In this document: positions 2,332 through 39,804 of the stretch, in pieces
Layout: every line of letters starts with the position of its first letter
How positions within the stretch are numbered: position 1 is the stretch's first letter
Virus record (IMG/VR): IMGVR_UViG_3300034980_000562
Span: 1 to 39,892 of that record
Reading direction: 5' to 3' (one strand)
Length of the DNA stretch: 39,892 nucleotides
DNA from: a virus
Program-made: the position numbers and the translations under genes
Notes under the pieces: generated by a model
The model's database searches: none
Told to the model about the DNA's origin: nothing
What the model saw: only the letters and a program-made list of their open reading frames with translations

Positions 2332-2609
2332 TCTTCTTCTCCTTTGTTAATGTTTTTGCCATCTCTGTCGCGGCCCTCAAGTTGCCATTGAAGTTTTTTA
2401 AGCTCCGATAGTCTTAGGCTGGATTTCCACACCTTTGCGGCATATTCGTAGCAATCGTGGCTTGTGCTATAGTTGTGATCCAGTCCATTAGTTTTAACTC
2501 GATTTAAGGTTTCTTGTGCCACTTTTATGAGATTTGTCAGATTACACTCCATGTCCTGCAAAGCAGCCAACTGACTTTGCCATACATCCTCTGCTTTAAT
2601 TGTTCTCAT
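2328..2609 (-). CDS. Hypothetical protein (93 aa)
   Basis: Predicted largely helical (heptad-like Leu pattern around residues 10-40 and 60-80) and ends with a charged tail. It follows the CAU tRNA gene closely and is coupled to the next gene by an ATGA overlap. No domain recognised. Confidence 0.65.
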   Translation of the reverse strand: MRTIKAEDVWQSQLAALQDMECNLTNLIKVAQETLNRVKTNGLDHNYSTSHDCYEYAAKVWKSSLRLSELKKLQWQLEGRDRDGKNINKGEEE

Positions 2610-2625
2610 GTGATCTCTCTTGTAA

Positions 2626-2702
2626 TGGTAGGCTCTCTCGGGCTTGAACCGAGGACCACCCCGTTATGAGCGGGACGCTCTGACCAACTGAGCTAAGAGC
2701 CT
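2626..2702 (-). tRNA. tRNA with CAU anticodon (Met or Ile2)
   Basis: Acceptor AGGCTCT pairs with AGAGCCT, anticodon stem TCCCG/CGGGG encloses CTCATAA, and CCA is encoded. A paired first position (A-U) argues against initiator tRNA. Whether it is elongator Met, or Ile2 whose C34 becomes lysidine to read AUA, cannot be settled by eye. Confidence 0.92.
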
Positions 2703-2708
2703 GTGAAA

Positions 2709-2784
2709 TGGTGGGTGATGTGGGGCACGATCCCACGACCTGCGGATTAAAAGTCCGATGCTCTACCAACTGAGCTAATCACCC
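2709..2784 (-). tRNA. tRNA-Lys (anticodon UUU)
   Basis: Acceptor GGGTGAT pairs with ATCACCC, anticodon loop CTTTTAA, D arm GCTC/GAGC, encoded CCA. The upstream protein gene (2775-2993) ends inside it: that gene's last codons and TAG stop are the first ten bases of this tRNA. Confidence 0.93.
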
Positions 2785-2993
2785 TTCTTTTTGTCTTTCT
2801 TCTTTTTCTTTGTCGGCTGCGCCGGCTCAGAACTGTATGACTTATATTGAAATAAGGCAAATTCATAACCGGTTTCCACCCTCTGATCAACTTTGTTCCT
2901 GAGTCCTTTGAGCAGCAACGGATTAGCCGCGGCCCAGTTCAGTCCAAAATATGCCACGATTGGCGCCATAATTAATTTTACTATTGTTTTCAT
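2775..2993 (-). CDS. Small signal-anchored protein with Lys-rich tail (72 aa)
   Basis: Residues 1-25 (MKTIVKLIMAPIVAYFGLNWAAA) look like a signal peptide or membrane anchor; the last 15 residues are almost all Lys/Asp. The stop codon is inside the 5' end of tRNA-Lys, a 10-base overlap. The gene sits between tRNA-Leu and tRNA-Lys on the same predicted transcript, so processing of tRNA-Lys would cut the mRNA at its stop codon. Function unknown. Confidence 0.65.
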   Translation of the reverse strand: MKTIVKLIMAPIVAYFGLNWAAANPLLLKGLRNKVDQRVETGYEFALFQYKSYSSEPAQPTKKKKKDKKKGD

Positions 2994-3012
2994 ATTTCCC
3001 TCCTACAAGAAA

Positions 3013-3098
3013 TGGTAGCTGATGCGGGAGTCGAACCCGCAAGCCCGACCGGGCGGGAGATTTTAAGTCTCCTGTGTATACCGTTCCACCAATCAGCT
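3013..3098 (-). tRNA. tRNA-Leu (anticodon UAA)
   Basis: Class II tRNA with a long variable arm (CGCCCGGTCGGGC). Anticodon stem GGAGA/TCTCC around CTTAAAA, acceptor AGCTGAT with ATCAGCT, encoded CCA. Reads UUA/UUG. First gene after the promoter at 3107-3135. Confidence 0.93.
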
Positions 3099-11909: not shown

Positions 11910-12680
11910 TTATTTATATAGTACTGAAAAATCTACTTTGTATATTGGAACTACTAATAAAACATTCTCGAGAACTTGCACTCCAAACTCTGTTTGTCCC
12001 ACATCTAAGGCCATTATATAACCCACGAGCTTCCCTTCGTGGTTGAACACACCAGATCCAGATGAACCTGACCATGCATATGAAAACATATTAATATACT
12101 CATCATCAGTATAGGCCATCACGGTGCCTTCAAGCGTTGCGGGCCCCATTGAATTTGGATAGCCCGTATATATTAGTTTGTTTAAAATCGATAGGGCGCG
12201 CCGCCATTCTTTACCTGAAGTGAAGTCGGCCGGAAATTTAATTGGCTTTCTGCTGGTGATGTGTTCGACTGAGATTATTACATAATCGTTTTCTTCATCT
12301 CTTTTTAGTAACGATATGCAATTATGTAGCACCCCATCGGCCTCAACCTGCACTGATTCGCAGCCTCCGATAACGCCATGGCTAGTGGTAAGAACATAGT
12401 GCCCTTCTTTAAACTTAAAGTAGGTGCCGGTAGAGACCGCCAAAGTCCCATTTTGTTCATCAATTGATAATATTCTTACTGCTGAATTTCTGGAACGGAC
12501 AACAGCTTTCTTTTGAGAAACACTGAAATGACTTCCCACATTTGAATGGCTGAGTAGTTCGGAGCGTGCGGAAGGGCGCGAAGATTCAATCTGCCCCTGC
12601 GCTATCAAAAAAGTTATTATTGCCATAAAGGTAAAAAATAAACAACTTGTTATAAAAAATTTCTTTAGTTTGGCTCTCAT
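11910..12680 (-). CDS. Membrane-anchored trypsin-like serine protease (256 aa)
   Basis: Start at the ATG giving MRAKLKKFF. Residues 8-28 form an N-terminal membrane segment or signal. The rest has the chymotrypsin/HtrA-like catalytic triad: His101 in VLTTSHGVIGG, Asp132 in EENDYVIISV, and Ser207 in WSGSSGSGVF (the G-x-S-G pattern). No PDZ domain follows, so it is shorter than DegP. It follows the 1175-aa gene by one base and precedes fibre genes, so it is probably late-expressed. Exported, it could process virion or envelope proteins; the substrate is unknown. Confidence 0.82.
   Translation of the reverse strand: MRAKLKKFFITSCLFFTFMAIITFLIAQGQIESSRPSARSELLSHSNVGSHFSVSQKKAVVRSRNSAVRILSIDEQNGTLAVSTGTYFKFKEGHYVLTTSHGVIGGCESVQVEADGVLHNCISLLKRDEENDYVIISVEHITSRKPIKFPADFTSGKEWRRALSILNKLIYTGYPNSMGPATLEGTVMAYTDDEYINMFSYAWSGSSGSGVFNHEGKLVGYIMALDVGQTEFGVQVLENVLLVVPIYKVDFSVLYK
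11912..11919 (-). promoter_or_regulatory. TATAAATA box, possible T4-type late promoter
   Basis: The minus strand reads CTATATAAATAATAT, containing the exact T4 late-promoter octamer TATAAATA, about 46 bases before the start at 11866. It overlaps the stop codon of the protease gene. A single occurrence in A/T-rich sequence is weak evidence. Confidence 0.3.
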
Positions 12681-12681
12681 A

Positions 12682-15600
12682 TTAAACTTGCATTTGATAG
12701 CTAAAGAACACTGGCAATTCTTGCAAACCTGCTTTCTTTGCAAACCATACCAAATCTTCGTTGCCGGTTATTTTTATTCTCCCATTCTTACCTATCGCCA
12801 CATATACCGGCAATGTGGCTCCATCGCGAATGAAATTTTGATACATTCCATCAAATGCATCCTTCGGTGCTCTAAAATATCTAGTTGATAAATATTCTAA
12901 TAGCTCTTCTACCGGGACCATAACGTGGTACTGCATATCGTTGGTGTCCATTGGCCGATCGTATCCCATGATTCCGCTTGATACCCATTCGCTCGCGAGT
13001 TGACCGAGCATTTTTCTTGAAGATGGCATTGCCGGAGAAGCCGCCGGCGGTGGTCGGCCTCCCAAGGCCTCACTCAAAGATTCGCGCACCGTTCGAATTG
13101 TGCCGCGAGTGTTTGTTCTATGAATCGGGCTAACTCTTAAGATTTTCAAGCCTTTTATTTTCATCATGCCGGGGATCAGCAGCCTGTCCCGGTATTTCAC
13201 TCGGCCTAGGCTGCCTAATAACTCAAATTTTATCTCATAAGTGGCTATTTGCGCGGTGCCGACATTCATCGTATCTCCCATGGTTCGAACGGTAGTTACC
13301 CCTTCGATACCACGAATCTCTGTTTGAGTCTCTTGCACCTCACCGCCCACATTTTTTTGAATAGATACGTCTATTTTAATACTGTAAAGTCTGAGATCAT
13401 ACGTATCATCCTTTTCTTTAAGCAACCTATCAATCCTATCAATCTGCTCTTCCACGCTCTCCGACAGGTCGCGCGGCTCTCCTAGTGTGCCTGTCTGCGT
13501 TTCGCCGTGTTGAACGCCACTATAGTCGCGCACAGTGCCACCAAACGCACCCAGCTTGTTGAGTTGGTCCTTAACATATTTCTCCCAAGTCGATGGCTTG
13601 CCAAGATTGTTGTTGTCATCCATCTCAATATTGGGAATGTCGCGGGCAAAATTGAGGCGCCTCGTTGCTAGCGGTAGAGCGTATTTATAGTAAGCAACCC
13701 ACTTTTCAACCTCGTCCATGCTGCCCCAGTTATCTTTAATCCACCTCGTTGTCGCTACGGACCTTTCTGCCCACTCATCTGAGCCGGAAGCGACTTGCGC
13801 TGCGTACATGCTGTCGATGCGCTGGGCGGCCGCGTTTAAGCGTACGCCAGAGAGAACCTCGTCCTTAGTTGCGTCTGCGAGCGCTTTGATATTAACAAAT
13901 CTTTGTCCGATAACTTCTTCGGCTGCGTCTTCTATCATGTCGGGGTTGTCGTTAAAGTATTTAACCATAACCTTAACTGCTTCGATCTTCTCTTCGGATG
14001 ACCTAGCGTCCACAAAAATCTCAAACTTGTAGTTAACTAGTTGCTTGCGGTATCCGCCACCGCTGAGACTTGATTCGGCTATAACAACAAAGCGAGAGTT
14101 TGATCTTAACACCTCAGACCAAGGAGGCGCCGTATCTCTCCCTTTGTATGCAGCACCCAAAGCGAGCTGCTGTTGTTTGGGATCAGGCCCTTGGCGATCG
14201 CCATGGTGTTTACGCAATGCGGATGCCATCTCTCGGTTAAGGTCAGGGTTCTCGATCTTTGCGGGATGTGTTCGCGAAGCAGGAGAGCCAAACATTTTAC
14301 TATAGAGCCCATCGATCATTCCTTCTTGACCCTCATCAAACGCCCACATCTTAAACTCATTTGGAATTGAACCGAATTCGCCACCAAGGTTGTTGACTGC
14401 GTTTGATGAATTGGGATCACTCGTAAACCAAAACTCGACGGCACTGCTGTTGTCATCATCGTATACATGCCAGTGTTTAAGATCGGTCTCTGTCAATTCT
14501 GTGCGGGTGCGATCATAGGCTGTCTTGGCTATGAACTCGCCTTCCACCAGCTTTCTGCGTATCTTCTCTCTGATCTCGTCGTATATATCGGCAAAGTTTT
14601 CTTTGATTTGTTCGGCAAACTGCTCAAACTCCCACTTGGCTTCGTCAGGATCGTTGGCTGGCTCTTGGTGGGTCATGCGAACGGTTATCTCAAGGTGTGC
14701 GGTTTGTGGTGCGTCGGGGTTTATTTCTTCGCCCTCTGGTTGGGCTCCCGTTAGCATCCTAACATCCCACTCAACCTCGCCTTCGCCGGGAAGATCCCAT
14801 TCAATGTTGTCAATCTCGATCTCAGATGCGAAATCTCGGGCTTCTCTTCCGTAAGTGTTAGCGGGGATCGGCTGGAAGTTGTCGTCATAGTCGCCGGAGC
14901 CTGCTTCTACCGAAGGGTAAGCATCACCACCATCGCGCACTACAATGTCGGGCCATCCCAAGTCAATCTGCAGATTGCAGTAGGCGTTCATATAGATGTA
15001 GTGCCCCTCGCCGCCGTGTTCGTCAGGGCCCGCGACCTCAGCATTAATGCTGGAGTTGTCGTCCTCGTATTCGTTTTCCACTTCGTTCAAGGCTTCTTGG
15101 ATTGCGGCTTCATCGACAACGCCTGTGAATGAAACTTGAGGGTTCTCGCGCTGGAGATAGTTTAACATTTCTCGGAAGTCTTCAGGATTGCGTGAGTGCT
15201 CCCCGTCTTCTTGGACATTCGTAATACCCATGTTTTTAATGAACCAGTCGATATGATCCCACATTTCATCGGGAGGTGCTTCGTTGGAGCGTCCTTTAAT
15301 TTGATAGAGATAGTTACCACCGTATCCTTCGTTTTCCCAAGTCATCGTGATATAAGACGAGGATGCTTTGCGCTTGCCTTGACGCTTGCGGAGCGACACA
15401 AGCACGCCGCGAGAGTCTGACCCGCAATGTCCCATTCGCTCGGCTTCGACGTCGCAACTAGACACGCTCAAGTTATACCAGTAGGAGCCGTCATCGAATT
15501 CGTGGAGGACATTCTCTGGTTCTTCGCGGCTCTCTAAATCTTCTTTGGCTATATTGTATGCTGAGTTGATATCATCTTCATTTTTAATCATTTCATAGTT

Positions 15601-16251: not shown

Positions 16252-17010
16252 CTACACAAAAGCATCGGTCTTTAATAGCTCGGCAGTGTCTTGCCATCTC
16301 TTAACCTCATAGGGCCGGCCGTTTTTATGTGCGCGCAATACTTCAGCTAGAGAGCAGTCGTTGCCAGGAAAAGAGATCCTATCCCCCACAAAGTGAATTT
16401 GGTTATGTTCCAGGGCTTCTTTAAAATAGCGCTTGAGAATCTGAGATTTGTCGTTGCCTTCGTTGAATATATCGATACTAACAGCACCACCAATTACAAA
16501 GTCAAGTTGGGGGTATTTTTTTCTCAGCTTCCTCACAATTTCTCTTCTTTCGTGGTTTTCGGCGTCCCACTCTTCATAACACCTTCTCTCGACTGTGTTT
16601 GCATTGCGGCCCACTACTGAAAAGTTTATCATACCAGTGCGTTCTTCATAGTGCTTTCCAGTTTTAGTTGAAAAATCAGATTTCGTAACAATAGAGTTTA
16701 ATGAACGCTTAAGGTTTCTGGGGCAGACGAATTTATTCTCATAGATTATGTTCCATTCGCTATAACCGTTCGCAGAGATCTGATCGCGCTTCTGATAAAA
16801 GGCATTCCCCATACAGGGAAAAACACCCGACATTCTCTCTATTATGTCCATTCCCAGTTGATTAATGAGTCTGGGGAAGGATCCCCCTGAAACAATATAG
16901 ACCTCTTTGTCTCTTCCCCATTCATAAAAAGCTTTTTTAAACAGTGGATCGATCTTATCTCTAGAGGGAGTCAGTGTCCCGTCCACATCAAAAAGATATA
17001 TATTACTCAT
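16252..17010 (-). CDS. Eukaryotic-type phosphomannomutase, HAD superfamily (252 aa)
   Basis: Interconverts mannose-6-phosphate and mannose-1-phosphate. It matches the eukaryotic PMM family across its length: FDVDGTLTPSR (Asp8, Asp10), VSGGS (41-44), VFPCMGNAFY, the cap motif RTGMINFSVVGRN (124-136), GGAVSIDIFNEGNDKS, and VGDRISFPGND (Asp210, Asn217, Asp218). Length 252 is close to the usual ~245-250. Most bacteria use the unrelated alpha-D-phosphohexomutase instead. The start overlaps the cupin (mannose-6-phosphate isomerase type) gene by 4 bases, pairing two consecutive steps of GDP-mannose synthesis. Confidence 0.88.
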   Translation of the reverse strand: MSNIYLFDVDGTLTPSRDKIDPLFKKAFYEWGRDKEVYIVSGGSFPRLINQLGMDIIERMSGVFPCMGNAFYQKRDQISANGYSEWNIIYENKFVCPRNLKRSLNSIVTKSDFSTKTGKHYEERTGMINFSVVGRNANTVERRCYEEWDAENHERREIVRKLRKKYPQLDFVIGGAVSIDIFNEGNDKSQILKRYFKEALEHNQIHFVGDRISFPGNDCSLAEVLRAHKNGRPYEVKRWQDTAELLKTDAFV

Positions 17011-21021: not shown

Positions 21022-21050
21022 ATTATATCCGCTTTTTATATAAATGTCAA
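21022..21050 (-). promoter_or_regulatory. Consensus sigma-70 promoter for the groEL operon
   Basis: Perfect TTGACA (21045-21050), 17-base spacer, perfect TATAAT (21022-21027). The -35 box starts three bases after the upstream stop codon. An AGAGG ribosome site precedes the ATG at 20998. Confidence 0.9.
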
Positions 21051-22767: not shown

Positions 22768-23418
22768 CTAAATTATAATGTCGGCAATGCCATGTTCAAC
22801 GGCCTCTTCTGCAGTTAAATAGACGTTAACTTTGCGTTCTAGCAGATCTTTTAGATCTTTTTTGGACATATTTGTTTCTCGTATAAGCGCTCGGCTGTAC
22901 ATCTTTTGAATTTGCTCAACGGCTTCCATCTCATTAATAAGATTATGGAGCGGACCATGATTTCCTCCGATGACCGAGTGAATCATAACTCTACAATTCT
23001 TCCCTATTCTTCTTTTTCCCTTCGTGCCAGAGGCTAGCAAAAGAACGCCGGCTGACATCACCTTGCCTAGTCCAAAGGTGTGTATTTCTGTTGACTCTTG
23101 TATGAACCTCATTGCATCATACATACCAAACATGTCATCGGCAGAACCACCATACGTAGAAATATAAAATTCTATGGGGTCTTTTTTAGAATTAATCACG
23201 TTTGATTCACTTAAGTAAAGCATCGCGTGTATAAGTTCGGCCACCTTTTCTTCTGAAACGTCGGAAAAAAGCCCTACCACTCTCAAGTCCGGTTCTTTGG
23301 GGGGTATAAGGCCTTCTATGGATATTATTCTATCGATTTCTGATTGAAGGACGCCTTCAACTTCCGGAGTAATTGGGGTGGTCTCTCCAATAATGGCATC
23401 CATAATTTTCTTAATCAT
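22768..23418 (-). CDS. ClpP-like protease with altered triad (216 aa)
   Basis: ClpP/crotonase fold: IEFYISTYGGSADD (83-95), GLGKVMSAGVLLLASG with nucleophile Ser122, CRVMIHSVIGG with His147, and the closing YLTAEEAVEHGIAD. The third catalytic position, Asp two residues before the aromatic in true ClpP, is Asn198 here (KVNVYLTA). The protein may be weakly active, or a non-catalytic partner of the second ClpP homologue at 28758-29363. It overlaps the upstream membrane protein gene by 8 bases. Confidence 0.88.
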   Translation of the reverse strand: MIKKIMDAIIGETTPITPEVEGVLQSEIDRIISIEGLIPPKEPDLRVVGLFSDVSEEKVAELIHAMLYLSESNVINSKKDPIEFYISTYGGSADDMFGMYDAMRFIQESTEIHTFGLGKVMSAGVLLLASGTKGKRRIGKNCRVMIHSVIGGNHGPLHNLINEMEAVEQIQKMYSRALIRETNMSKKDLKDLLERKVNVYLTAEEAVEHGIADIII

Positions 23419-24868: not shown

Positions 24869-25197
24869 AACTCAGGGTGTTCCTCCGCTATCAAATCAAA
24901 AATATCTTCAATCTGATCTTCCGAAAAGCCCAGATCTTTGGTGGCCACAATGCCCTCATCCCTTAACTTTCTACTAAGTTTTTTCTTACTATTTGACTGT
25001 GTTTTTATCTCGTCGATGTAACTCACTATTCTTTGATCATTCTCTATATACGCGGTGATGAGACCCCTAAAGAAATCTGATTGTCGGAGGCCATCATGCT
25101 TCAATCTTACAAGTAGCTGGGCATGTCGATGATCGTTTTCTGTAAACACAATTCTTTTATTTAATTTGCCATAATCTATGCCGGACATCGTCACCAT
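24865..25197 (-). CDS. Putative ribbon-helix-helix DNA-binding protein (110 aa)
   Basis: Residues 12-50 (LNKRIVFTENDHRHAQLL, then LRQSDFFRGLITAYIEN) fit a strand followed by two helices, as in ribbon-helix-helix repressors. The C-terminal half is basic then acidic (KKKLSRKLRDEG, EDQIEDIFDLIAEE). It overlaps the enzyme gene upstream by 7 bases and the sigma-like gene by 4, so the two regulators are co-expressed. Confidence 0.6.
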   Translation of the reverse strand: MVTMSGIDYGKLNKRIVFTENDHRHAQLLVRLKHDGLRQSDFFRGLITAYIENDQRIVSYIDEIKTQSNSKKKLSRKLRDEGIVATKDLGFSEDQIEDIFDLIAEEHPEL

Positions 25198-26261
25198 TGC
25201 CTTCCGGTAATGTGTGTTTTACTCTCGCCTATACCCGCGGTTGTCTGTTTAATAAAAGCGGCGACGGTTTGAAGTTCTTGTATGCTCCTGGCGCCACTAT
25301 ACGAGAGCCCGGACCTAATTCCCTTCTCAAGATCTTTTAGGATGCTCTTCACGGAGCCGCGGTATGGCACCCTTGCAGAAACACCCTCAAAAGACGAATA
25401 GTTTCCGCGCCACTTAATCTGGGCTTCTTTGGACGCCATTCCTCGGTATGTTTTCCATCGAGTACCATCGCTCTCTTCTATAATTTTCCCTGGTGCTTCA
25501 TCGGTACCTGATAAAAGGGAGCCACACATAACCACGTCAGCGCCGGCCGCATATGCCTTGACCATATCTCCAGAATTCGTTATTCCACCATCGGCAATAA
25601 TCGCCACATCGCGGTCGACTTGTGCACAATCTAAAATTGTTTGAAGGCCTGGCATGCCATGGCCCGTTTGTATGCGTGTCGAGCATATGGATCCTCCACC
25701 AATGTTACATCGGATCGAGTTAGCGCCCCAGTCGGAGAGGTCTCTTGCTCCTTGTATCGTCGCGACATTTCCGGCCATGATGTGGTATTTATCTCCTAAT
25801 AAAATACGCAGTTTTTCTAGCGCATCTTTCATCATCACATGATGGCCATGGGCGACATCTATGCAGATAAAGTCGGCACGAGAACCTAAGAGCAACATGG
25901 CCCTTTCTATAAAATCGCCGGTGACACCCACGGCGGCACCAACTACAATTTGGCGGCCGTGGAGGTTGGTCGCCATTTCCTTAGCTAATTTAACGTGGGC
26001 GGCCTGTTCGTCGGGGGTATTATATCGGTGAATGACTGCGGCGCCACCGGAGAGACCCACCTCAAGAGCCATGGCAGCTTCTGATATTGTATCCATCGGG
26101 GATGCCAAAATAGGCAGTTCAAGAATCAAGCCATTTCCAAGATCGGTAGACACATCTATTTCAGATCTAGATTTAATATCAGAATAGCGCGGCATAAGTA
26201 GCACATCATCATATGAAAGGCCGGCACTATATTCTTTGATGCTGGTTTCCCTATGCGTCAT
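25191..26261 (-). CDS. IMP dehydrogenase / GMP reductase family enzyme without CBS domains (356 aa)
   Basis: TIM-barrel purine enzyme: [37 protein letters not shown], the loop [15 protein letters not shown] with catalytic Cys193, [26 protein letters not shown], and [13 protein letters not shown]. No CBS pair. The short flap and [12 protein letters not shown] recall GMP reductase, while GTDEAPG and the MDT region recall IMPDH, so direction (IMP to XMP, or GMP to IMP) is unresolved. The usual GPGS is GGGS. ATG at 26261 chosen over an upstream TTG. Probably adjusts guanine nucleotide pools during replication. Confidence 0.88.
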
Positions 26262-26631
26262 CGCGATTCTCGTCAATAAAGCTTTTAATATCTCTCATCT
26301 TATAAAAAGTCGCGTCACTGGGATCGTTGGGGTCGGCCAAGATTTTAATCTGTGGCAGTCGTCGATTCTTATAGGTATTAATCATGGCAATCGTAGGTAC
26401 CCCGTTGAACCCAAGATCGGCCTGAATATCTGGGTATGTATCTATATTAAAGGCATAAAAATGTATATTTTCATACTCTTTATTGTTCGACATGTCTTCA
26501 TAATATTCTTTCAAATTGTGACACATGTGGCACCCATTGGAATAGAATTTTAAAACGCATGTTGCGTCATTCCTCACTTTTCCTGCGACTATTTTTTTCA
26601 ATGCCGGATAAGTTAACCGATCAACGCTCAC
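26251..26631 (-). CDS. Thioredoxin-like protein (126 aa)
   Basis: Active site CHMC (Cys34, Cys37) in the context VLKFYSNGCHMCHNL, followed by a strand FYAFNIDTYPDI and the cis-proline loop GVPTIAM, all standard thioredoxin-fold features. GTG start chosen because AGGAGG lies six bases before it. It overlaps both neighbours by about 11 bases. It could supply electrons to the ribonucleotide reductase at 37837-39804 (inference). Confidence 0.88.
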   Translation of the reverse strand: MSVDRLTYPALKKIVAGKVRNDATCVLKFYSNGCHMCHNLKEYYEDMSNNKEYENIHFYAFNIDTYPDIQADLGFNGVPTIAMINTYKNRRLPQIKILADPNDPSDATFYKMRDIKSFIDENRDDA

Positions 26632-29366: not shown

Positions 29367-32300
29367 TTATCCTAATAATTTAAATGTTTTGCCAATAGCG
29401 TATGTTGAGAACCCCCAGTTCTCATCGTATTTAAGACGAGCCATATAGGGACGGTTAAGGTGAATAACATCTTTTTGTGGTTTAACTCCCCAACACCTTA
29501 TCCTAGTTAGTTCATTATTGGAGTCAATGACCTCAACGATCCAATAAAGTTTTCCATTTTTTGTCTTTTTGGCCACAACTTTGCGAGGAATGAACCAACA
29601 AACCTGCAGATCTTCATCGAACTCTGAAATAGGGGGAATAAGCCGCTCTTGCAGCTTTTCTACTGTTGTGGGTGTTATGACTAAATTCATTGGAAATATT
29701 CCAATCAAGTCTGTCTTAAACTGTATAATCTCCTCTTCTGAAAAATCTCCTTCGGGGGCATACAACTCAATATTATCAGAAAATTTCTTAAGATTTTTTG
29801 GTCGATCGACGATTGTTGCAGACCAAAAATGTTTTCGACCAGTGAAGCGGTCATCAACAATGTTGTCCAAGGCCCCGCCGCGGCAGAGCGCATCTAGGGA
29901 CTTCTTATTGAGTTTGCTATAAGAAATATCTTCTCTAAACAACAGGTCTTCTGCGTTCATGAATGGACGATTTTCTAAGACCTGCTCGATGGCAGCGACA
30001 CCGAGGCCCTTGATCGAGGAAAGAGGCTGGATTAGAGTCTTTGCATCCTTGCTGATTTCCCACACAACACCAGATTTATTTATGTCAAGCTCTGCGATAT
30101 TGAATCCGTACTGCTTTGCGATATTAATCGCCTTCTCCTTGCGAGTCTCAGGCTCCTTGTCTAAGAATGCTGCCATCCACTCGGCGGGGTAATAGTTCCA
30201 CAGCCACGCACACTGGAATGAGATAATACTATACGATACTGCATGAGACTTATTGAATCCATACCCTGAGAAAAATTCAAACTTATCCCACAGGGTCTGG
30301 GCTTTATCTCTGGCGATCTTATTTTTAAGGCAACCGGAGATAAACTTATCGTGAAGTTTGCCCTTGATTGAGCCTTTGCCGGTGCCCTTTTTGGTTAACA
30401 CTTTGCGAAGCACATTACCTTCATCAAGAGTTAGACCACCAAGCTTATGAGCTAGCAGGGCGATCTGTTCTTGAAAGATCAAGAAACCAAAGGTCTCTTG
30501 TGTGATCTCATGAGAGTCGCCATTCAGATATTCAATGTGGTGTGGGTTTTCCTTGGCATCTATATACTCATCGTGGACGTTTGCAGACAAAGGGCCCGGG
30601 CGATAGATGGAGGTGATAGCAGAAACATCAATAATGTTGCGCGGCTTAGCGCGTACACAAAACTTCTGGGCGCCCTGTTCAGTAAACTGGAATATTCCAG
30701 CCCATTTGCCTGTGTGAAATATATTCTCGTATATTTCTTGATTGTCCATATCGATCACATCCGGGTGTAGATGCTCATTATAATAATTTTGTACCTGTAC
30801 GAAGGTCGGACTTTCAACTCCATGGTGGCGACGAAGGATGTGTTCAATGGCGCCCTCCATCATTTTCAAAGTCGAAAGACCAAGTAAATCAAATTTAATA
30901 AAACCCATCGGTTCAAGGTGACGGACATTCTGTCCTTCGGCCCATGGTGCTTGGCGCACGCCTCCGGAATTGATCAGGGGCATGTTTTTGTCTAGGTTCT
31001 CAGCTATAACAACTCCGCCGGCGTGCCGGGAGCAAGAACGCACCTGGCCCACAAGGCCCTCAACGTGAGTCTTGACTTCTGGGTATTTATTCAGATATGC
31101 TCTCAGTGTGGGTGAAAACTCCATGACCTCTTCCCATGATGGTGCATATACTCCCGCCTTGATGCCGTGCTTTCGCTTCACTTCGGGGGTAGCTTCACGG
31201 ATCATGATAGAAGTAACAGTGTTTACCTCTGTAAATTCGATGTTGTATAATTTTGAAATGTCCTTGATTAAACTTTTGAGCTGCAGCGTATTCCAGTTGG
31301 AGATTGGAGCAACGCAATCGGCGCCCCACATCTCAACGAGCTTCTCTTTTAGAGCCATACTGTCAGATACATCATAGTCGATATCAGGATAGTCAGTCGC
31401 ATCCGAGCGCAAGAATCGAGAGAACAGCAAACCATGCTTAATCGGGTCAACTTGTGTAATGTTTAATGCGTACGCAACAAGCGAACCTGCTGCAGAGCCG
31501 CGGCCCGGGCCAGTGAGCATCATATCGGTGGCGACATCAACAATGGACTTCATCGTTAAGAAGTATTTAGAGAAGCCTCGATCATCGATGACATTAAGCT
31601 CGAGCTTCAATCGATCGGTATATTCTTTTTTGATATGAAGGCCCTTATCTTTAAGTCCCTCAAGAGCAAAATTAACAAGCGCCTGTGTTGCTGTGAATCC
31701 GGCTGGTACCACAAACTCCGGCAAGCGTACTGTGTTGTCGGGCAGAAACGACTCAATTCGATCGAACGCGATGGTATGTGTCTCTTCGATGCTCTGCATG
31801 ACTAAGTCATCGTCGTATTCAAATCCCTGTTCGTCGGAGTATTGCTTATAACTCTCCCACATTTGATCGCCGTTCTTTGGGTACAACTCGTAACCAATTT
31901 CCTCGACGCCGGCAGGGAGTTGTGATTCCTCATCGGCCCACGATGGGCGCCCTTTGCCGAGCCAGCCTAAGCGCTTATAAAGTTCTCTGTCCTTCCAGGC
32001 GTCAGGATTGGGATAGTGACTGTCGGCAGTCGTTACCAGCTTGACGTCAAATTCTTTCGCGACCTGAATGACATACTGATTCAGCTCGTGCTGCTCTTTA
32101 ATGTTGTTCCATTGAATCTCGGCATACCAGCGATCTCCGAAGATATCAACCATTTGTCGTGTAGACTCTCTCATCGCCTCTAGGACGGCTTCGGCGCCTT
32201 CGTCCCGATGTTCCCAGTAGTTACCAGCGTAAACGCCGCCTAGGCACGCTGACGAGGCTATGATACCCTCATTATATTTCTTCAGAAGCGCGTAATCAAT

Positions 32301-32795
32301 GCGCGGATATCGATAGAAATTTTCTGCTTTGTATGACTCGGATACAAGCTTGAACAGATTGTTTAACCCTGTCTGATTTTGAACCAGTAGAACAAGGTGT
32401 CGCCGGCGTTTGAGTATTCCTTGGATCTTCTTGCTATCGCCCTCGTCTTCAACGGTGGCGCCCGACTGTTCATCCTTTTTAATCGAGCGCGCCTTCTTCT
32501 TGTCTTCCATCGCCTGATTATACGCGTCGTGCCACTCGGCGATGGACGGCGTAAAGTAGGCCTCGCAACCAAAGATCGGTTTAAACTCTCTCCCCTCCTC
32601 TTGCATCTTCTTAGCGTGTAGCACCTGATATGCCAACCCATTCATATTACCATGATCGGTGAGGGCTAGTGCTTCGCCACCGTTCTCATATGCAAAGTCC
32701 ATGTGTGCCTGGGGATACCCAATGGCATCAAAAATTGAACCTGCCACACTATGTGCGTGCAGTCCAACAAATTTAATCTTAGATTGTTTTCTCAT
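29367..32795 (-). CDS. dnaE: DNA polymerase III alpha subunit, family C (1142 aa)
   Basis: Replicative polymerase. N-terminal PHP domain: GLHAHSVAGSIFD and ALTDHGNMNG. Polymerase palm: TGPGRGSAAGSLVAYAL, then YPDIDYDVSD with catalytic Asp471 and Asp473 and CRHAGGVV. Fingers and beta-binding regions follow (GPLSANVHDEYI, GFLIFQEQIALLA, GYGFNKSHAVSYS), then a C-terminal OB fold. Length is near E. coli DnaE (1160). Most large phages carry family A or B polymerases, so a family C enzyme is notable. ATG at 32795 chosen over an upstream start; the promoter at 32830-32858 precedes it. Confidence 0.96.
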   Translation of the reverse strand: MRKQSKIKFVGLHAHSVAGSIFDAIGYPQAHMDFAYENGGEALALTDHGNMNGLAYQVLHAKKMQEEGREFKPIFGCEAYFTPSIAEWHDAYNQAMEDKKKARSIKKDEQSGATVEDEGDSKKIQGILKRRRHLVLLVQNQTGLNNLFKLVSESYKAENFYRYPRIDYALLKKYNEGIIASSACLGGVYAGNYWEHRDEGAEAVLEAMRESTRQMVDIFGDRWYAEIQWNNIKEQHELNQYVIQVAKEFDVKLVTTADSHYPNPDAWKDRELYKRLGWLGKGRPSWADEESQLPAGVEEIGYELYPKNGDQMWESYKQYSDEQGFEYDDDLVMQSIEETHTIAFDRIESFLPDNTVRLPEFVVPAGFTATQALVNFALEGLKDKGLHIKKEYTDRLKLELNVIDDRGFSKYFLTMKSIVDVATDMMLTGPGRGSAAGSLVAYALNITQVDPIKHGLLFSRFLRSDATDYPDIDYDVSDSMALKEKLVEMWGADCVAPISNWNTLQLKSLIKDISKLYNIEFTEVNTVTSIMIREATPEVKRKHGIKAGVYAPSWEEVMEFSPTLRAYLNKYPEVKTHVEGLVGQVRSCSRHAGGVVIAENLDKNMPLINSGGVRQAPWAEGQNVRHLEPMGFIKFDLLGLSTLKMMEGAIEHILRRHHGVESPTFVQVQNYYNEHLHPDVIDMDNQEIYENIFHTGKWAGIFQFTEQGAQKFCVRAKPRNIIDVSAITSIYRPGPLSANVHDEYIDAKENPHHIEYLNGDSHEITQETFGFLIFQEQIALLAHKLGGLTLDEGNVLRKVLTKKGTGKGSIKGKLHDKFISGCLKNKIARDKAQTLWDKFEFFSGYGFNKSHAVSYSIISFQCAWLWNYYPAEWMAAFLDKEPETRKEKAINIAKQYGFNIAELDINKSGVVWEISKDAKTLIQPLSSIKGLGVAAIEQVLENRPFMNAEDLLFREDISYSKLNKKSLDALCRGGALDNIVDDRFTGRKHFWSATIVDRPKNLKKFSDNIELYAPEGDFSEEEIIQFKTDLIGIFPMNLVITPTTVEKLQERLIPPISEFDEDLQVCWFIPRKVVAKKTKNGKLYWIVEVIDSNNELTRIRCWGVKPQKDVIHLNRPYMARLKYDENWGFSTYAIGKTFKLLG

Positions 32796-32829
32796 TACTT
32801 GCCTCCATAAAGAATTTTCTAACATGTAT

Positions 32830-32868: not shown

Positions 32869-33753
32869 CTATGTTGTAGAAGGAAATTCGTTATGCTTGC
32901 GAGATTTGATCAAATCGGTCCCGGGGTGTAGGATTAAGTGATTAGAGGAAAAATATTCAATATATTGTTCCCACCGGTGTGCGTCGAAAAACCACTCAGT
33001 CTCTTCTGTGTGGGACTCGGATAGATTCATCGGCTGGAATATCTCGTTCAGCGGGAAGCTTTTGGCCGTCCATCGTAGATGCGGGGGTAACTTCTCCGAA
33101 GGGTAAGTTTCGCCGGGTAAAGGGGGTAAATATTCCTTTGTTGTTTTTTGGTTGATTTGTCGTCTGCATTTTTTAAAGTCTTCTCCGAACATTGTGAAAG
33201 ATAGTGGAATACCATCTTTTATGCTTTTGTTATTAAATATGAAGAAAAAGTTTTTTTCTTTATCTCTTATTAATTTCCGATTCTCTCTAATTTTAGAAAG
33301 ATCAAAAAGAGCCAAAGGAAACGAAATATAGTATTTATCAGGGGTAAGCCATCCAGAAATACTATTGGCAGTTTTCCAGGCCATCAGTTCTCCGTAGAGG
33401 ACTGACCAACCATAGGAGTCTCTTCTATTGCGATCTTTAGGGTGGATCGGTACATAATAAATAGGTACCTCTTTTCTTACGTTACTATGAAACTTCGTTA
33501 AATTTCTATTGTGATATACGGGATCATATACCCAGTCTCCCACCACCTTCCTTACGAGTGGTGCCAAATCATCATTGGCCACTATCCATATTGTGCTACA
33601 GCCGGCCATGGCACACTCATACACTGACTTCTGAATCGCACTAAACCCGTTATCAACGGGAAGCAATATCGCAGGAAATGGTGTTTTGTGATCAGTTTTA
33701 ATATTTGCAACGGGAATTATGCCGGCCATATGAAGGCGCGCTCGAATGCTCAT
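32869..33753 (-). CDS. Nucleotidyltransferase-like protein (294 aa)
   Basis: Residues 9-55 resemble the GT-A fold of sugar nucleotidyltransferases: MAGIIPVANIKTD, then PAILLPVDNGFSAIQKSVYE and CAMAGCSTIWIVANDD, followed by LVRKVVGDWVYDP. The classic G-x-G-T-R-x motif is missing, so activity is doubtful. Later sections (VPIYYVPIHPKDRNRRDS) match, from memory, a family in marine T4-like phages. It could complete the mannose-1-phosphate to GDP-mannose step, but this is a guess. Overlaps the previous gene by 4 bases. Confidence 0.6.
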   Translation of the reverse strand: MSIRARLHMAGIIPVANIKTDHKTPFPAILLPVDNGFSAIQKSVYECAMAGCSTIWIVANDDLAPLVRKVVGDWVYDPVYHNRNLTKFHSNVRKEVPIYYVPIHPKDRNRRDSYGWSVLYGELMAWKTANSISGWLTPDKYYISFPLALFDLSKIRENRKLIRDKEKNFFFIFNNKSIKDGIPLSFTMFGEDFKKCRRQINQKTTKEYLPPLPGETYPSEKLPPHLRWTAKSFPLNEIFQPMNLSESHTEETEWFFDAHRWEQYIEYFSSNHLILHPGTDLIKSRKHNEFPSTT

Positions 33754-34616
33754 GAAATATACCGATGAGAGTGCAGAGAAATCTCCTGTAGCATTTCTGC
33801 GGTGTTGCATTCGATCCTTTTAACATTAAACTGAGAGGTCCAAGTCGGTGATCGTAGTAATCTTTTTTCTCTGCCGATTGAAGACGCTTTGAACTTATAA
33901 TATCTTGGGGTGCCGCGGTTCGTATACCCATTTAGCTGGCCCTTCATGCCATTTTCATACATAATCGAGAGTGCCTTAAAACGGGACATTGTCTCAGAAC
34001 ATGAAAAATCGTCTATTTGCTTCTTTGTCAGCCTTGATAGCACACAAGCATCTTTAACGCCAGTATTCCCGCAAATTCGGTCACTTGAATAGAACCATAT
34101 CTCGCTAACAAAATCTTCACTTGTTGTAATATAGTCAATCTCATGCTTACCTCCTTTGTGGAATCCAATATAATCATAACATAAGTATGTTGGATTTTCA
34201 ATATTTTGTTTTTTAATAAGGCCGCTTATATTGGGCTCATCAAAGTAAAAGCACGTATTAAACTTTACTTCTGCAATTTTTGAATACTCGTTGGTACAAA
34301 TAATTTTTTCTCCATCATAGCGCATACCACTGCACAAATCTGACAGCGGGGCCCTTCCGGAAAGAGAGAGCAGAAAAAGAATTCTTTCCCAAACAATTTC
34401 TTTGCGGATACCAACGTTTTTAGTCTCGCCAAAAGTTGTTAATTTTCTATCCTCTGGCGGAATCTTCAAGAAGGACAAATCAATTTCAGCTTCTAAATAA
34501 TCAAACCTAAACGGCCTTCGAGCTTCAGTAAAAAAAACTGGGTAGTCGTTCTTATATGCATATAGAAGTGCTTCTAAAGTGCTCCCCACCACTATATTAT
34601 CGTACTCTAAATTCAA
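33750..34616 (-). CDS. Rossmann-like protein (288 aa)
   Basis: The N-terminus (YDNIVVGSTLEALLYAYKND, then YPVFFTEARRPF) looks like a beta-alpha-beta dinucleotide fold with a relaxed G-x-x-x-x-A motif, recalling FAD/UDP-sugar mutase-like proteins. The rest is mixed alpha/beta with no clear catalytic motif. Starts with TTG, overlapping the secreted protein's stop by 4 bases (TTGA). It is co-transcribed with the nucleotidyltransferase-like gene, hinting at a joint sugar or lipid modification role, unproven. Confidence 0.6.
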   Translation of the reverse strand: MNLEYDNIVVGSTLEALLYAYKNDYPVFFTEARRPFRFDYLEAEIDLSFLKIPPEDRKLTTFGETKNVGIRKEIVWERILFLLSLSGRAPLSDLCSGMRYDGEKIICTNEYSKIAEVKFNTCFYFDEPNISGLIKKQNIENPTYLCYDYIGFHKGGKHEIDYITTSEDFVSEIWFYSSDRICGNTGVKDACVLSRLTKKQIDDFSCSETMSRFKALSIMYENGMKGQLNGYTNRGTPRYYKFKASSIGREKRLLRSPTWTSQFNVKRIECNTAEMLQEISLHSHRYIS

Positions 34617-35800
34617 TCCTTCCTTCTGAAGCCTGCCACCAAAGCAGCCATAAAAATAACGTATAAACTACCACGATTAGTCGCTGTGGACATGCAACCC
34701 GAGGAAGACTTTGGCCCGGGGTCGGTGGGTGTATCTGCAAATTCAAACGGCACAGAGGTATCTGTGTCTTCTCCGTGATTGAGGCCAGAGTCCTGATGCT
34801 CGGGGATATCCCCTGTATCATCTTCTGTGACGACAGCTTCTTCCTCTTCTTCGTCTGCGGGAATAAAGAACGGCTGTGAAATAATTAAGTCCGTGAGTGT
34901 TACACCGAGTTCATGGTGAAAGGGATCGTACCAACCAGTATCAAAGTTTCCCATAAAGTTTAACTCATCTATCATGAATGGCATGCCTTCTTCAACCTGA
35001 ACACTCAAGAAGTATTCGTGGTAAGCTGACTGTGTTTCTCTTGCGCCGAGATTCAGGTACATGTCCCACGCCATCAAATCTGCTCTTCCATCCACAAACA
35101 CATCCCACTCATAGAGGGTGACTTCGTATTGAGTTTGAACCGAATATTCTGATGAGTGGTAGCCCTTGATCTGAACATTCCCCTCCGCTTCTACTTCTCC
35201 ATCTTCGTTAATTGGATACTCACCATGAGCCATGACGGCGCCTTCTGAATCAGATCCTATTCCGTATGCGTTCTGAAACGTTACCTGCCCATAGGCATCG
35301 ATACCATAGGACTCAAACGGAACTGACCAATCCCAACGGAAGGCTCCCTGTTCGCGTGCCACGTCAGTCATGGCCTCCACACTTAGAACCGGATGTTCAC
35401 CCCAATCACTCCATTCATCAGCCCAGAGTTTGCATTGTGCACCTCTTGCCCAGGCCCAAGGTGCGTAGTGACAATCATGTCCTGGGGTAACTCGCGTTTT
35501 AATGACGGCAACATAAAAATCTGTACCCCGATCAATCGACGATTGGAACCAGAAAAATTCCACAATGGCATCAATGGTGTTATCGTAAACATCCGAGTTC
35601 CCAACGTAAAGCGTATTCCCCTCAAAAAAGGCGTACGGAAATCGGTCCTCACTGCCAGCGATGTCGGTAGCGGTTTCAAACGATACGTCCCAGTCCCCTT
35701 CTAAAATAGATGCGCCCGAATAAGACGTCTCGCTGTCGCTAAAATCGTCAGCGTTTGCGGTGCCCATAAGGCACAGCGATAACAATAAGTTTGTAAACAT
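34613..35800 (-). CDS. Secreted protein with MYXO-CTERM-like sorting tag (395 aa)
   Basis: Signal peptide MFTNLLLSLCLMGTANA, probably cut before DDFS. The body is Trp/Tyr/Asp-rich and beta-like with no known domain. Residues ~325-362 are an acidic linker (EDDTGDIPEHQDSG, GEDTDTS). The end is a sorting tag: SSSGC, a short spacer, a hydrophobic helix (SLYVIFMAALVAGF) and RRKD. This matches MYXO-CTERM, which directs anchoring to the outer surface of Myxococcota. A phage gene with a host-type surface anchor suggests a protein displayed on the infected cell, perhaps blocking superinfection or altering the envelope. Strong promoter upstream. Confidence 0.83.
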   Translation of the reverse strand: MFTNLLLSLCLMGTANADDFSDSETSYSGASILEGDWDVSFETATDIAGSEDRFPYAFFEGNTLYVGNSDVYDNTIDAIVEFFWFQSSIDRGTDFYVAVIKTRVTPGHDCHYAPWAWARGAQCKLWADEWSDWGEHPVLSVEAMTDVAREQGAFRWDWSVPFESYGIDAYGQVTFQNAYGIGSDSEGAVMAHGEYPINEDGEVEAEGNVQIKGYHSSEYSVQTQYEVTLYEWDVFVDGRADLMAWDMYLNLGARETQSAYHEYFLSVQVEEGMPFMIDELNFMGNFDTGWYDPFHHELGVTLTDLIISQPFFIPADEEEEEAVVTEDDTGDIPEHQDSGLNHGEDTDTSVPFEFADTPTDPGPKSSSGCMSTATNRGSLYVIFMAALVAGFRRKD

Positions 35801-35825
35801 GTTTCTCCTAGTTTATGTTTAAGGT

Positions 35826-35854
35826 ATTATAACTTAGTGGGCCAAGAATGTCAA
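35826..35854 (-). promoter_or_regulatory. Consensus sigma-70 promoter for the MYXO-CTERM-like gene
   Basis: Perfect TTGACA (35849-35854) directly after the upstream stop codon, 17-base spacer, perfect TATAAT (35826-35831). TAGGAG ribosome site before the ATG at 35800. Confidence 0.9.
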
Positions 35855-36388
35855 CTATTTCCTTAGTCCTTTGGAATCGTGACCACCAAGAAACCAGTTT
35901 GAGTGCATTATATGAAATTTCTGATTATAATGACTCCAACCTAAAGCATGGCCGATCTCATGTTCAAGTACGCGATCTTTTTTGTGAGACCGAGGAAATA
36001 TGTGTATCTGGGCCATTATTATATCATTCGTCTTTATATGAGTATACAAGCTCGTTGACGCTATCCGGCTATTATCAAAAGTGCCATCGGGCAGCGAAAA
36101 AACTATTTCGCCGGCACGGGGAGCAGCACATACTATTGCATGATCCACCTGTATCTTTTTAAACTCATATCCTAAAATTTCCCAATATAGCAGCGCTTTT
36201 GCGAGCCGATACATTGAGATGCCGGTCTCGGCGCAGACTCTCACGGAAGGGGCGTCTGGCCACACTGCCTTTTGCAGAGGGGGACCAAGAACAAATACCT
36301 CCATGTGATCTTGTATCAGGAATCTGTTGTCCAGCGGGAGCATCGCGCATGCCAGACACATGAACCATATATAAACTTCCTGGAACAT
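35855..36388 (-). CDS. Metzincin-type zinc metalloprotease (177 aa)
   Basis: Zinc site HEIGHALGWSH at 143-153 (the HExxHxxGxxH metzincin motif) followed by a Met-turn at Met161 (FHIMHSNW), as in matrixins. Residues 1-20 are hydrophobic and could be a signal or anchor. The region around VWPDAPSVRVCAETG recalls phage metalloproteases of this type. It sits 17 bases after the amidase gene, so the two probably form a lysis or envelope-degrading unit: amidase cuts peptidoglycan, protease cuts envelope protein (inference). Confidence 0.88.
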   Translation of the reverse strand: MFQEVYIWFMCLACAMLPLDNRFLIQDHMEVFVLGPPLQKAVWPDAPSVRVCAETGISMYRLAKALLYWEILGYEFKKIQVDHAIVCAAPRAGEIVFSLPDGTFDNSRIASTSLYTHIKTNDIIMAQIHIFPRSHKKDRVLEHEIGHALGWSHYNQKFHIMHSNWFLGGHDSKGLRK

Positions 36389-36405: not shown

Positions 36406-37320
36406 TTATTCGTTTTCTTTAATTTCGTCCAGCAGTGTTTTGATGTCTAGTCCCGCACAATCTATTTTTCTCTTACTAACGTGGTAGTGGCTAACAAATC
36501 CTGAAAATTTACCATACGTCACCTCTTGTTCATATTTTGTTGATGTTTTGCCGAATTGGTTTAACGGAGTTTCATAAGGGATATCTAGACCCGTATGGAT
36601 AGCGCGCCACAGAGTTTTAAGCGCCTCAATCTGTTTGGGGTAAAAACCCAGGAATGGCTTCAGTTGGGATCCGTGTACCCATGCATCGGTTATGACCGGG
36701 CGTTCACCAAAGCCGTTTTCGATGTACCATTTTTGATACTTAGTATAATATGCGTTCGATATCTCAACACCAACAGAGGGTCGGTTTGAGCGCGCTGAGC
36801 CGGCATGCCACGCAGCATGCTGCATATCCATCGTCTGGTATATTGTTCCGTCATTATCAATCAAGAAGTGAACCGAAATCCCTCTTCGGTCGAGGACACC
36901 CTGGCAAGATCTCGCAGATAAACAAACATCCCAATGGTTCACAAAATAACGAATTTTTCTTGCTGGGCGCGCTGAATAGTCATAATAGTGGCCGCGCTTG
37001 GCCTGCAGGCCGCCGTCATCAGACCACAGCACAACGTTCTCCCATTCAATGGGCAGAAATTCACCATTATATACGATATGTTTAGAGTAGTTTGGGGGTC
37101 TATCTTCACAGTAATCTCCAACGATTTCCCTCTCTTGCCTCTCGGTCCACAATCTACGAAATGTCATGGGTCCGCAGAGGCCGTCGGACGAAAGGCCACG
37201 GGCGCGCTGCCACTTTTTAATTGATCTGGTTAATTTATCATCAAAATACTTCTCGCCGAACCAACTTGGTTCCCAGCCTAATTTCTTAGCAGAGGCCTCG
37301 TTATAAAAGTTTTTATCCAT
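36406..37320 (-). CDS. N-acetylmuramoyl-L-alanine amidase with peptidoglycan-binding domain (304 aa)
   Basis: Endolysin-like enzyme. Residues 12-58 form a peptidoglycan-binding domain (KLTRSIKKWQRARGLSSDGL). The amidase_2 domain follows: YFVNHWDVC (zinc His129), MQHAAWHAG, VGVEISNAYY, and FVSHYHVSKRKIDCAG with His278 and Cys288 at the T7-lysozyme ligand positions. It cleaves the amide between MurNAc and the stem peptide. No signal peptide, so it needs a holin (none seen in this window) or acts from the virion. Next to the metzincin. Confidence 0.92.
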   Translation of the reverse strand: MDKNFYNEASAKKLGWEPSWFGEKYFDDKLTRSIKKWQRARGLSSDGLCGPMTFRRLWTERQEREIVGDYCEDRPPNYSKHIVYNGEFLPIEWENVVLWSDDGGLQAKRGHYYDYSARPARKIRYFVNHWDVCLSARSCQGVLDRRGISVHFLIDNDGTIYQTMDMQHAAWHAGSARSNRPSVGVEISNAYYTKYQKWYIENGFGERPVITDAWVHGSQLKPFLGFYPKQIEALKTLWRAIHTGLDIPYETPLNQFGKTSTKYEQEVTYGKFSGFVSHYHVSKRKIDCAGLDIKTLLDEIKENE

Positions 37321-37836: not shown

Positions 37837-39804
37837 CTAAATGGTGCATGTATCATTTGTACAAAATTTTGTACCAGTTCCGCCGGGATCCTCAGAGAGT
37901 TTGTTTAGTGGCTTTACTTTGGCTATCATCTTCTCATATTCTTTCTTGGTAATTGCTTCATATGGTGCTTGTTTATATCCTGTTTCTGTGAGTTTCAAAA
38001 AAGATACAGCTTTGAGGCGCGACTCATACATTTCTAAAGCATCCTTAATCTGATAGGATTCTTCATCTTTGAAGGTGATCGTGACTGATACTGAGTTATC
38101 CGCCCAATAGTACTGATATTGAGCCGCGATTTCCAGCTGTTCCCACATGCTAACGCTTTTTTTGCCCTTTGTGAAGTAAGGTTCTTTAACTGCAAATTCA
38201 ACAACCATGGTGTTTGGCGTATATTCATCTGCCTCAATCTTATAACCGGCTTCTTCCAGGGGTCCTAATAGTCCAGAGTCAGATCCAAATCTGATTCTTC
38301 TAATATAATATTCATCCTCTGGGAAATGAATTCCCGGCGTCGAGCCGTTCAGGAGCGATACTGTGCCAGATGGTTTAATTGACGTCATACGAACCGATTT
38401 GGGAATGCAGAGCCAGTTAGAATATTCTTTATCTAGCTGTGTTACATATTCATATGCTTGATCGCACCAGTTGTACATCTGTCGACGACCATGTTTATTA
38501 AATGCCTGCACCACACCCGATTGGGACAACCCAATCCGGCGGTTCTTGAGCATCTTTGCATTGGTCTCAGGCCAGTGTGTGTTTGAGAGGGTAATCGTTT
38601 TCCCATATAGGTAAGCAATTTTGAGCGTTTTCAAATAATCTTCAAGATCTTCATGCTTCGCAGGGAAAGTTTCAACAAGACAGCACAATTCGGCGTCTTC
38701 GAGTTGTTGTTCGACGCACGGGTTAAAGCCGGCGACATTTATATCATCAAAGCGCTCGCCATCTCTAAAGCGGCCGCGGGTTCGCGCATTGTTTAGCCAG
38801 ATATATCCGGGTTCGCCGTTCTTTTGTGATTGGTTGGCGTGCCATGTATAATCCATCCCAACAACAGCATTAAAAGAATTGTTGGACCCCCAGCGGTGAT
38901 GATAAAGTTTTTCTTGATCATTCTTCATTTCAAGATATTGGATATCGTCATGAGAACCCATCGCAAGGGCCGCTGAGCGTCGGACATTTCCGGACACCAC
39001 ACAACGGCCGATTAAATTCTCCGTGTCTACAATATCAACCGATGTAATGGACTCGCCTATCTTGGCTGTGTAAAGTTCTGTCAGGCTTTCGTGCAATTCG
39101 ATCAGGGGGTCCGGACCGCTTGAGGTACCTCCAAATCCTTTAATTTCTGCGCCATAAGGTCTAATCGCAGAATAATCAAATTTGGGTACCTTCGAACCGT
39201 GGAAAAATCCGTCCAATAATGTATGAACCGAGTCTACCCAGCCTTCGCGAGAATCATCAATCACAAGCGTGTCGTTTGTGTATTCTGGCTCTCGGATAGA
39301 CAAAGTGTCTGAGCCTTCAGTGTCGAAGCCCACACCAATACCCACCATTAGAGCGTCCATCATCCAAGCGAATAAATAACCACCCTTTGTAGATAAATCG
39401 CGAGTAGAGCGAAAAGCACAATTAAACAGCCCTGCCGCAGTACGTTCTTCAATAAATTTTGTGCCCATCATCCACAGGCCGCGGCCAGGTGGCGTCCATT
39501 TTAGATTAAACAATCGATCATATGCGTCTTTGGCTGTTTTCTGAGCCTTGCTATCGTTCCATTCAAGACCCAGGGCAAATACATGCTGTTTTTGCATGTT
39601 AAACATGCTCTCTACCACTCGCCGGCATGTCTGCCACCACTCTTCGGAACCCGAAGCAGCCGGATCAAACTCGCTCAATCTTCGAGCATATGTTCTTTTA
39701 AAGGTGATATATCCTAGGGGGCCCCAAGGTACTTCCGAGTCCACATATGGCTCGATGAAGGAATCCGAAAGGCGGAATCTGCGTATATTTTCTACTGTTC
39801 TCAT
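37837..39804 (-). CDS. nrdJ: Class II (adenosylcobalamin-dependent) ribonucleotide reductase (655 aa)
   Basis: Makes dNTPs from ribonucleotides. It matches the monomeric B12-type family: GLFNCAF with Cys129, NRRS-like ENLIGRCVVSGNVRRSAAL, active-site loop FNPCVEQQLEDAELCCL (Cys363 thiyl site, Glu365, Cys374), SIKPSGTVSLLNGSTPGIH, and a C-terminal C-x4-C (Cys648, Cys653) for thioredoxin reduction. No ATP cone. Somewhat shorter than the Lactobacillus enzyme (739). The B12 dependence means the host must supply or import cobalamin. First gene of the run down to 35855. Confidence 0.93.
   Translation of the reverse strand: MRTVENIRRFRLSDSFIEPYVDSEVPWGPLGYITFKRTYARRLSEFDPAASGSEEWWQTCRRVVESMFNMQKQHVFALGLEWNDSKAQKTAKDAYDRLFNLKWTPPGRGLWMMGTKFIEERTAAGLFNCAFRSTRDLSTKGGYLFAWMMDALMVGIGVGFDTEGSDTLSIREPEYTNDTLVIDDSREGWVDSVHTLLDGFFHGSKVPKFDYSAIRPYGAEIKGFGGTSSGPDPLIELHESLTELYTAKIGESITSVDIVDTENLIGRCVVSGNVRRSAALAMGSHDDIQYLEMKNDQEKLYHHRWGSNNSFNAVVGMDYTWHANQSQKNGEPGYIWLNNARTRGRFRDGERFDDINVAGFNPCVEQQLEDAELCCLVETFPAKHEDLEDYLKTLKIAYLYGKTITLSNTHWPETNAKMLKNRRIGLSQSGVVQAFNKHGRRQMYNWCDQAYEYVTQLDKEYSNWLCIPKSVRMTSIKPSGTVSLLNGSTPGIHFPEDEYYIRRIRFGSDSGLLGPLEEAGYKIEADEYTPNTMVVEFAVKEPYFTKGKKSVSMWEQLEIAAQYQYYWADNSVSVTITFKDEESYQIKDALEMYESRLKAVSFLKLTETGYKQAPYEAITKKEYEKMIAKVKPLNKLSEDPGGTGTKFCTNDTCTI

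Follow-up and report, generated by a model that had tools for sequence, protein, structure and literature searches.

A phage-borne, putative surface protein with a MYXO-CTERM-like sorting tag and a predicted pore-former fold, apparently captured from Myxococcota

A tagged protein gene in a phage genome

The window analysed here is the whole of IMG/VR virus record IMGVR_UViG_3300034980_000562 (39,892 nucleotides), which its endolysin, head-maturation protease and tail-fibre families identify as a phage. On its minus strand lies an open reading frame (ORF) that an initial annotation had described as a phage surface protein with a signal peptide, an Asp/Thr linker, Gly-Cys, a hydrophobic helix and Arg-Arg-Lys, the layout of the MYXO-CTERM sorting tag of Myxococcota. 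The translated ORF confirms this layout, and its parts are as follows.

34613..35800, minus strand: tagged ORF, 395 amino acids plus stop by translation, with homologues in 54 viral loci
35750..35800, minus strand: signal peptide MFTNLLLSLCLMGTANA, residues 1-17, with an AxA end and no lipobox
34865..35749, minus strand: body, residues 18-312, with a predicted leukocidin/alpha-hemolysin-type beta fold
35399..35485, minus strand: insertion with two Cys (C110, C123), residues 106-134, defined by alignment
35126..35290, minus strand: putative amphipathic beta-hairpin at the pore-stem position, residues 171-225, recognised by alternation of charged residues
34703..34864, minus strand: acidic, Asp/Glu/Thr-rich linker, residues 313-366, unconserved in sequence and unalignable
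34616..34702, minus strand: MYXO-CTERM-like tag with SGC369 (Cys codon 34694..34696), a helix at residues 377-390 and RRKD, supported by alignment, tail pattern and host-class profile

The signal peptide of the window protein was assigned by inspection, and a hydrophobic N-terminus is kept in the family despite sequence variation. A reading of the window protein as an N-terminal lipoprotein was ruled out, there being no lipobox and Cys10 being unconserved. Most phage members carry the insertion with C110 and C123, which the aligned bacterial homologues lack. The tail of the window protein reads SGC369-MSTATNR-GSLYVIFMAALVAGF-RRKD.

Conservation of the C-terminal tail

In every intact family member the C-terminus consists of a Cys followed, after a few to about 14 further residues, by a hydrophobic helix and then a basic end, which is weaker in L038/L039 and L043. 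The Cys is the sole invariant column across 25 divergent tails and, in an alignment of 36 phage and bacterial proteins, the only invariant residue of the linker and tail region. Among the homologues we found none with a normal membrane anchor and no Cys, one of two observations that the initial annotation had named as speaking against the tag. A strict Cys/helix/RR-tail pattern picked out 46 family members and 0 of 617 other ORFs from the same phage loci, so the tail is not a chance feature; by the same pattern, these loci hold no further tagged protein.

The NCBIfam MYXO-CTERM model TIGR03901 (curated cut-off 20 bits) matches 10 of the 25 family tails and TIGR03382 matches eight. The JDVT-, GlyGly- and Synergist-CTERM models give weak matches to three to five of the 25 tails and none to the window tail; the MYXO-CTERM models match both more members and more strongly, with the other CTERM tags behind. 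On the MYXO-CTERM model the phage relative L027 scored 22.4 bits in one search and 17.7 in another, and the bacterial homologue L057 scored 24.2 bits. A profile of MYXO-CTERM tails, 57 in number and drawn from the putative host class introduced below, ranked 31 family members no lower than the top one of 617 unrelated phage ORFs; the lowest family E-value was 1.1e-6, and the window protein ranked 30th with an E-value of 0.14. Because of the invariant Cys, the TIGR03901 and TIGR03382 matches and this profile separation, the family tag is, as far as sequences can tell, MYXO-CTERM-like and under selection, with the window copy a weak example of it.

Relatives on Myxococcota chromosomes

One scan of IMG/VR found homologues in 54 loci, with 50-97% identity over the matched part, while no real homologue of the window protein was present among the INPHARED phages searched. 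Among bacterial genomes, a scan picked up homologues in assemblies labelled 'Deltaproteobacteria' and 'proteobacterium', including the UBA796 reference genome. The body is common to chromosomal Myxococcota proteins, mostly from one class, the UBA796 lineage; the initial annotation had suggested comparing the body with this phylum. Strong homologues occur in about 13 of the 284 Myxococcota genomes searched and in 9 of 71 from the UBA796-type class. UBA796 is handled as a Myxococcota class in the literature (PMC11937823).

These Myxococcota proteins (L056-L060, L076, L078, L079, L081-L086, L090, L091) share the homologous body and, where the C-terminus is complete, have Cys-helix-Arg tails of MYXO-CTERM type. 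They differ from the phage form in being chromosomal and, in the aligned ones, in lacking the two-Cys insertion, and some have Cys-rich repeats between body and tag. The location is clear where the flanks are long enough: lipid-A genes adjoin L058, and a mur/fts cluster adjoins L059 and L100. The repeats, of CDGLDNDCDG or CxxG type, were seen in L081, L084, L082, L085 and L086. These members point to a broader surface family in Myxococcota, so far undescribed, for which a pore-former fold is predicted.

In the maximum-likelihood tree all phage sequences, together with L055, form one clade (support 100/100) within the UBA796-class sequences, and its sister is the bacterial L056 (support 99/92). 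One phage clade nested in bacterial sequences argues for a single capture: the gene appears to have been taken once from UBA796-type Myxococcota and to have then evolved for long in phages, and it is now found in many unlike phage gene neighbourhoods. L055 (DUCW01000115.1), from a Gemmatimonadetes metagenome-assembled genome, was rejected as a sign of another host; it is a 3.7 kb contig inside the phage clade and probably a mis-binned phage fragment.

The initial annotation had proposed a Myxococcota host and a check for myxosortase. The tagged chromosomal homologues and the tail profile support this host group, and an MrtX-like CPBP protease is encoded in 64 of 67 UBA796-class genomes, with the EExxxR and HxxxN motifs kept in all four proteases checked. 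TIGR03901 has 23-106 matches in five of six homologue-bearing bacterial genomes. No CPBP protease was found in 25 phage records, and the phage would therefore have to rely on that of its host. The matrixin-like gene next to the tagged gene was of no help in linking phage and host, with a match, and a weak one, in only 1 of the 67 class genomes.

Structure prediction for the body

Since sequence comparison with Pfam and PDB gave no match, the body is described as leukocidin-fold-like and is not filed in a sequence family. AlphaFold models were made for the phage protein and for the bacterial homologue L056, from alignments that share rows, so that the two are not fully independent. In a Foldseek search of PDB, NetF/NetB and alpha-hemolysin came first (E 1e-4 and 1.6e-5). 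A second structure comparison returned, for both models, leukocidin-superfamily pore-formers in 50 of the 50 entries listed, with Z of about 10-12.3 over some 160-195 residues, mostly near 3 A. A fold search of BFVD gave nothing at E 1e-3 or better. The models thus predict a leukocidin/alpha-hemolysin pore-former fold, which the initial annotation had overlooked and which changes the likely function.

The poorly predicted residues 171-225 coincide with the position of the superfamily's pore stem. Here charged residues occupy 1% of cells at odd positions and 23-38% at even positions, and residues 201-225 rank in the top four of the body's 25-residue stretches for such alternation. This is the pattern expected of a membrane-crossing hairpin, although as a sequence pattern it is no proof of pore formation.

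Promoter and gene neighbourhood

Signals for expression and neighbouring genes surround the tagged ORF as follows.

35805..35809, minus strand: ribosome-binding site AGGAG, read in the sequence; AGGAGAAAC is kept in close relatives
35826..35854, minus strand: promoter TTGACA-N17-TATAAT 5' of the tagged ORF, an exact consensus match
33753..34616, minus strand: downstream neighbour with a 4-nucleotide overlap with the tagged ORF, syntenic in 33 loci
35858..36388, minus strand: upstream neighbour, a secreted matrixin-like metalloprotease (HEIGHALGWSH; match to PF00413 at E 6.7e-4, short of the cut-off) that keeps this position across the close clade
36409..37320, minus strand: upstream neighbour, an endolysin (Amidase_2 and peptidoglycan-binding domain) recognised by domain matches, part of the close-clade cassette

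The perfect promoter noted in the initial annotation is real and conserved: the TTGACA and TATAAT boxes are exact in most close relatives of the tagged gene, while the 17-nucleotide spacer has diverged. The idea that it is special to this gene was rejected, as the window holds five perfect copies of TTGACA-N17-TATAAT including this one; it is therefore a phage promoter class, presumably read by the host RNA polymerase, and nothing peculiar to the tagged gene. It is only suggestive of the strong early expression that had been proposed. Another copy (21022..21050), of sigma-70 type, lies directly upstream of a phage groEL (19415..20998), and the remaining copies are at 19515, 22751(+) and 23858.

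In L007, L011, L018 and L024 only, an extra gene of 89-110 amino acids with a lipoprotein-like N-terminus lies between the matrixin-like and tagged genes. Elsewhere the window encodes five tRNAs on the minus strand (1933..3098: Ile-TAT, Arg-TCT, Met-CAT, Lys-TTT, Leu-TAA) and a bacterial-type DNA polymerase III alpha subunit with its PHP domain (29370..32825). Host-like genes include those for a trypsin-like protease (11913..12743), a phosphomannomutase-like protein (16255..17010), a ClpP-like protein (22771..23418), an IMPDH/GMP-reductase-like protein (25194..26276) and a class II ribonucleotide reductase (37840..39804).

Discussion

With somewhat better than even confidence, we read this gene as encoding a captured, leukocidin-fold surface protein tagged for a host sortase, most likely an auxiliary surface weapon and not a part of the virion. 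The signal peptide, the homology of the body, the Cys-helix-Arg tail and the single-origin clade were read from sequence, and the fold and hairpin are predicted. Host RNA polymerase would transcribe the gene from its consensus sigma-70 promoter and the protein would be exported by Sec via the signal peptide. A MrtX-like myxosortase of the host would then cut the tag at a lipid-modified Cys, leaving the protein tethered by its linker on the outside of the infected predator, where it would most likely act as a contact-dependent, membrane-active, pore-former-like protein, so that the infected cell could still attack or resist its neighbours. An auxiliary weapon is the role that we prefer, since a pore-former-like protein would be held on its producer by the anchor and since the putative hosts are considered predatory (PMC11937823). 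The more specific proposal, that a myxosortase-tethered captured pore-former lets the infected predator permeabilise prey or repel competitors while the phage replicates, is a tentative one that we consider rather unlikely in this full form. The benefit to the phage may lie in an auxiliary weapon, superinfection exclusion or an aid to lysis. The initial annotation's own proposals, a block on superinfection or a gene of use to the host, are speculative.

Several points weigh against this interpretation. Neither the whole window protein nor its isolated tail matches TIGR03901, the check proposed in the initial annotation, or any other NCBIfam tag model. The initial annotation had named such a missing hit as speaking against the tag; relatives do match TIGR03901. 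The window tail reaches only 7.3 bits on the host-class profile. Being below the curated cut-off of the tag model, the protein is called MYXO-CTERM-like and not a member. The MrtX-like matches in the candidate hosts all fall far under the curated 180-bit cut-off, which tempers the outcome of the myxosortase check. The Myxococcota host is suggested by homology and not by spacer or culture. The body has no match in Pfam, PHROGs or PDB by sequence, its identity to solved leukocidin-superfamily relatives is about 6-13%, and confidence in the models is moderate, with a mean predicted local distance difference test score (pLDDT) of 64-67 and values below 50 in the stem region. Both the Cys-dependent cleavage and surface anchoring of the window protein and its formation of pores are putative.

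Of the other explanations, the one that survives best, though we think it doubtful, is that the fold is leukocidin-like but makes no pore, the protein acting at the surface as an adhesin or structural component and altering cell contacts. A common fold by itself shows no function, model confidence in the stem is low, and several bacterial copies lie near housekeeping envelope genes and not in toxin islands; yet the strong polar alternation at the stem position is kept in both phage and bacteria.

Somewhat less likely again is superinfection exclusion, in which the tethered protein would mask or block a receptor, or hetero-oligomerise with the host homologue, and so bar other phages. The host-type promoter is suggestive of early expression, surface anchoring would retain the protein on the infected cell, and the two-Cys insertion of most phage forms, absent in the aligned bacterial forms, could be a new binding surface. 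Simple masking, however, would not need the stem-like hairpin that has been kept.

An aid to lysis, whereby a membrane-active protein and the endolysin and metalloprotease encoded next to it would jointly weaken the outer membrane, seems improbable. The endolysin and matrixin-like genes do lie directly upstream in the close clade, but the tagged gene has its own consensus promoter separate from theirs, its neighbourhoods in other phage lineages lack the cassette, and neither tethering to the outer leaflet nor the existence of close homologues in bacteria suits a dedicated lysin. Finally, an ordinary membrane anchor with an incidental Cys would fit the lack of a model match for the window tail, but is very improbable given that the Cys persists in every intact homologue on a very divergent tail, that the bacterial homologues carry MYXO-CTERM-type tails and that the host-class profile separates the family.

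Returning to the captured, surface-tethered protein that we prefer, it resembles two described systems in its two halves. Like proteins of the MYXO-CTERM/MrtX system (TIGR03901/TIGR03382, NF040593; Guo, Haft and Wall 2025, PMC11980579), it has a signal peptide, an invariant Cys, a short helix and an Arg-rich end; its relatives score on the models, and genomes of the candidate host class encode MrtX-like proteases in which the catalytic motifs are kept. It differs in being phage-borne, in a window tail that lies below the model and in processing that is predicted only. With the leukocidin/alpha-hemolysin superfamily (7ahl, NetB, Vibrio cytolysin) it shares the predicted fold and an amphipathic hairpin in the same place; it differs in sequence, with an identity of about 10% and no Pfam or PDB sequence match, and in being putatively anchored by its C-terminus on the producing cell and not released.

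Phage-borne leukocidins are already known. Panton-Valentine leukocidin is a toxin carried on temperate staphylococcal phages, and is secreted, soluble and two-component, with a Gram-positive host. It has in common with the window protein a phage-borne gene and a leukocidin fold, the latter predicted here, whereas the present case involves a single gene, a product that would be surface-tethered, and large phages in which no sign of lysogeny was seen. A literature search found no paper on a MYXO-CTERM-type tag in a phage protein, in line with the initial annotation, whose claim of such a tag gains support from the invariant Cys, the tail pattern and the host-class profile. The search likewise found no paper on leukocidin-like proteins in myxobacteria. 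What appears new is the combination of a phage-borne gene, putative tethering at the surface by a sorting enzyme of the host, and descent from an undescribed myxobacterial family.

So far as the searched literature goes, the protein is without precedent among phage proteins in its apparent use of myxosortase-type C-terminal surface sorting, a bacterial system. The tagged family links a large uncultured phage group to uncultured Myxococcota, and the undescribed myxobacterial surface family to which it leads, with its predicted pore-former fold, offers a concrete candidate for how these predators might kill on contact.
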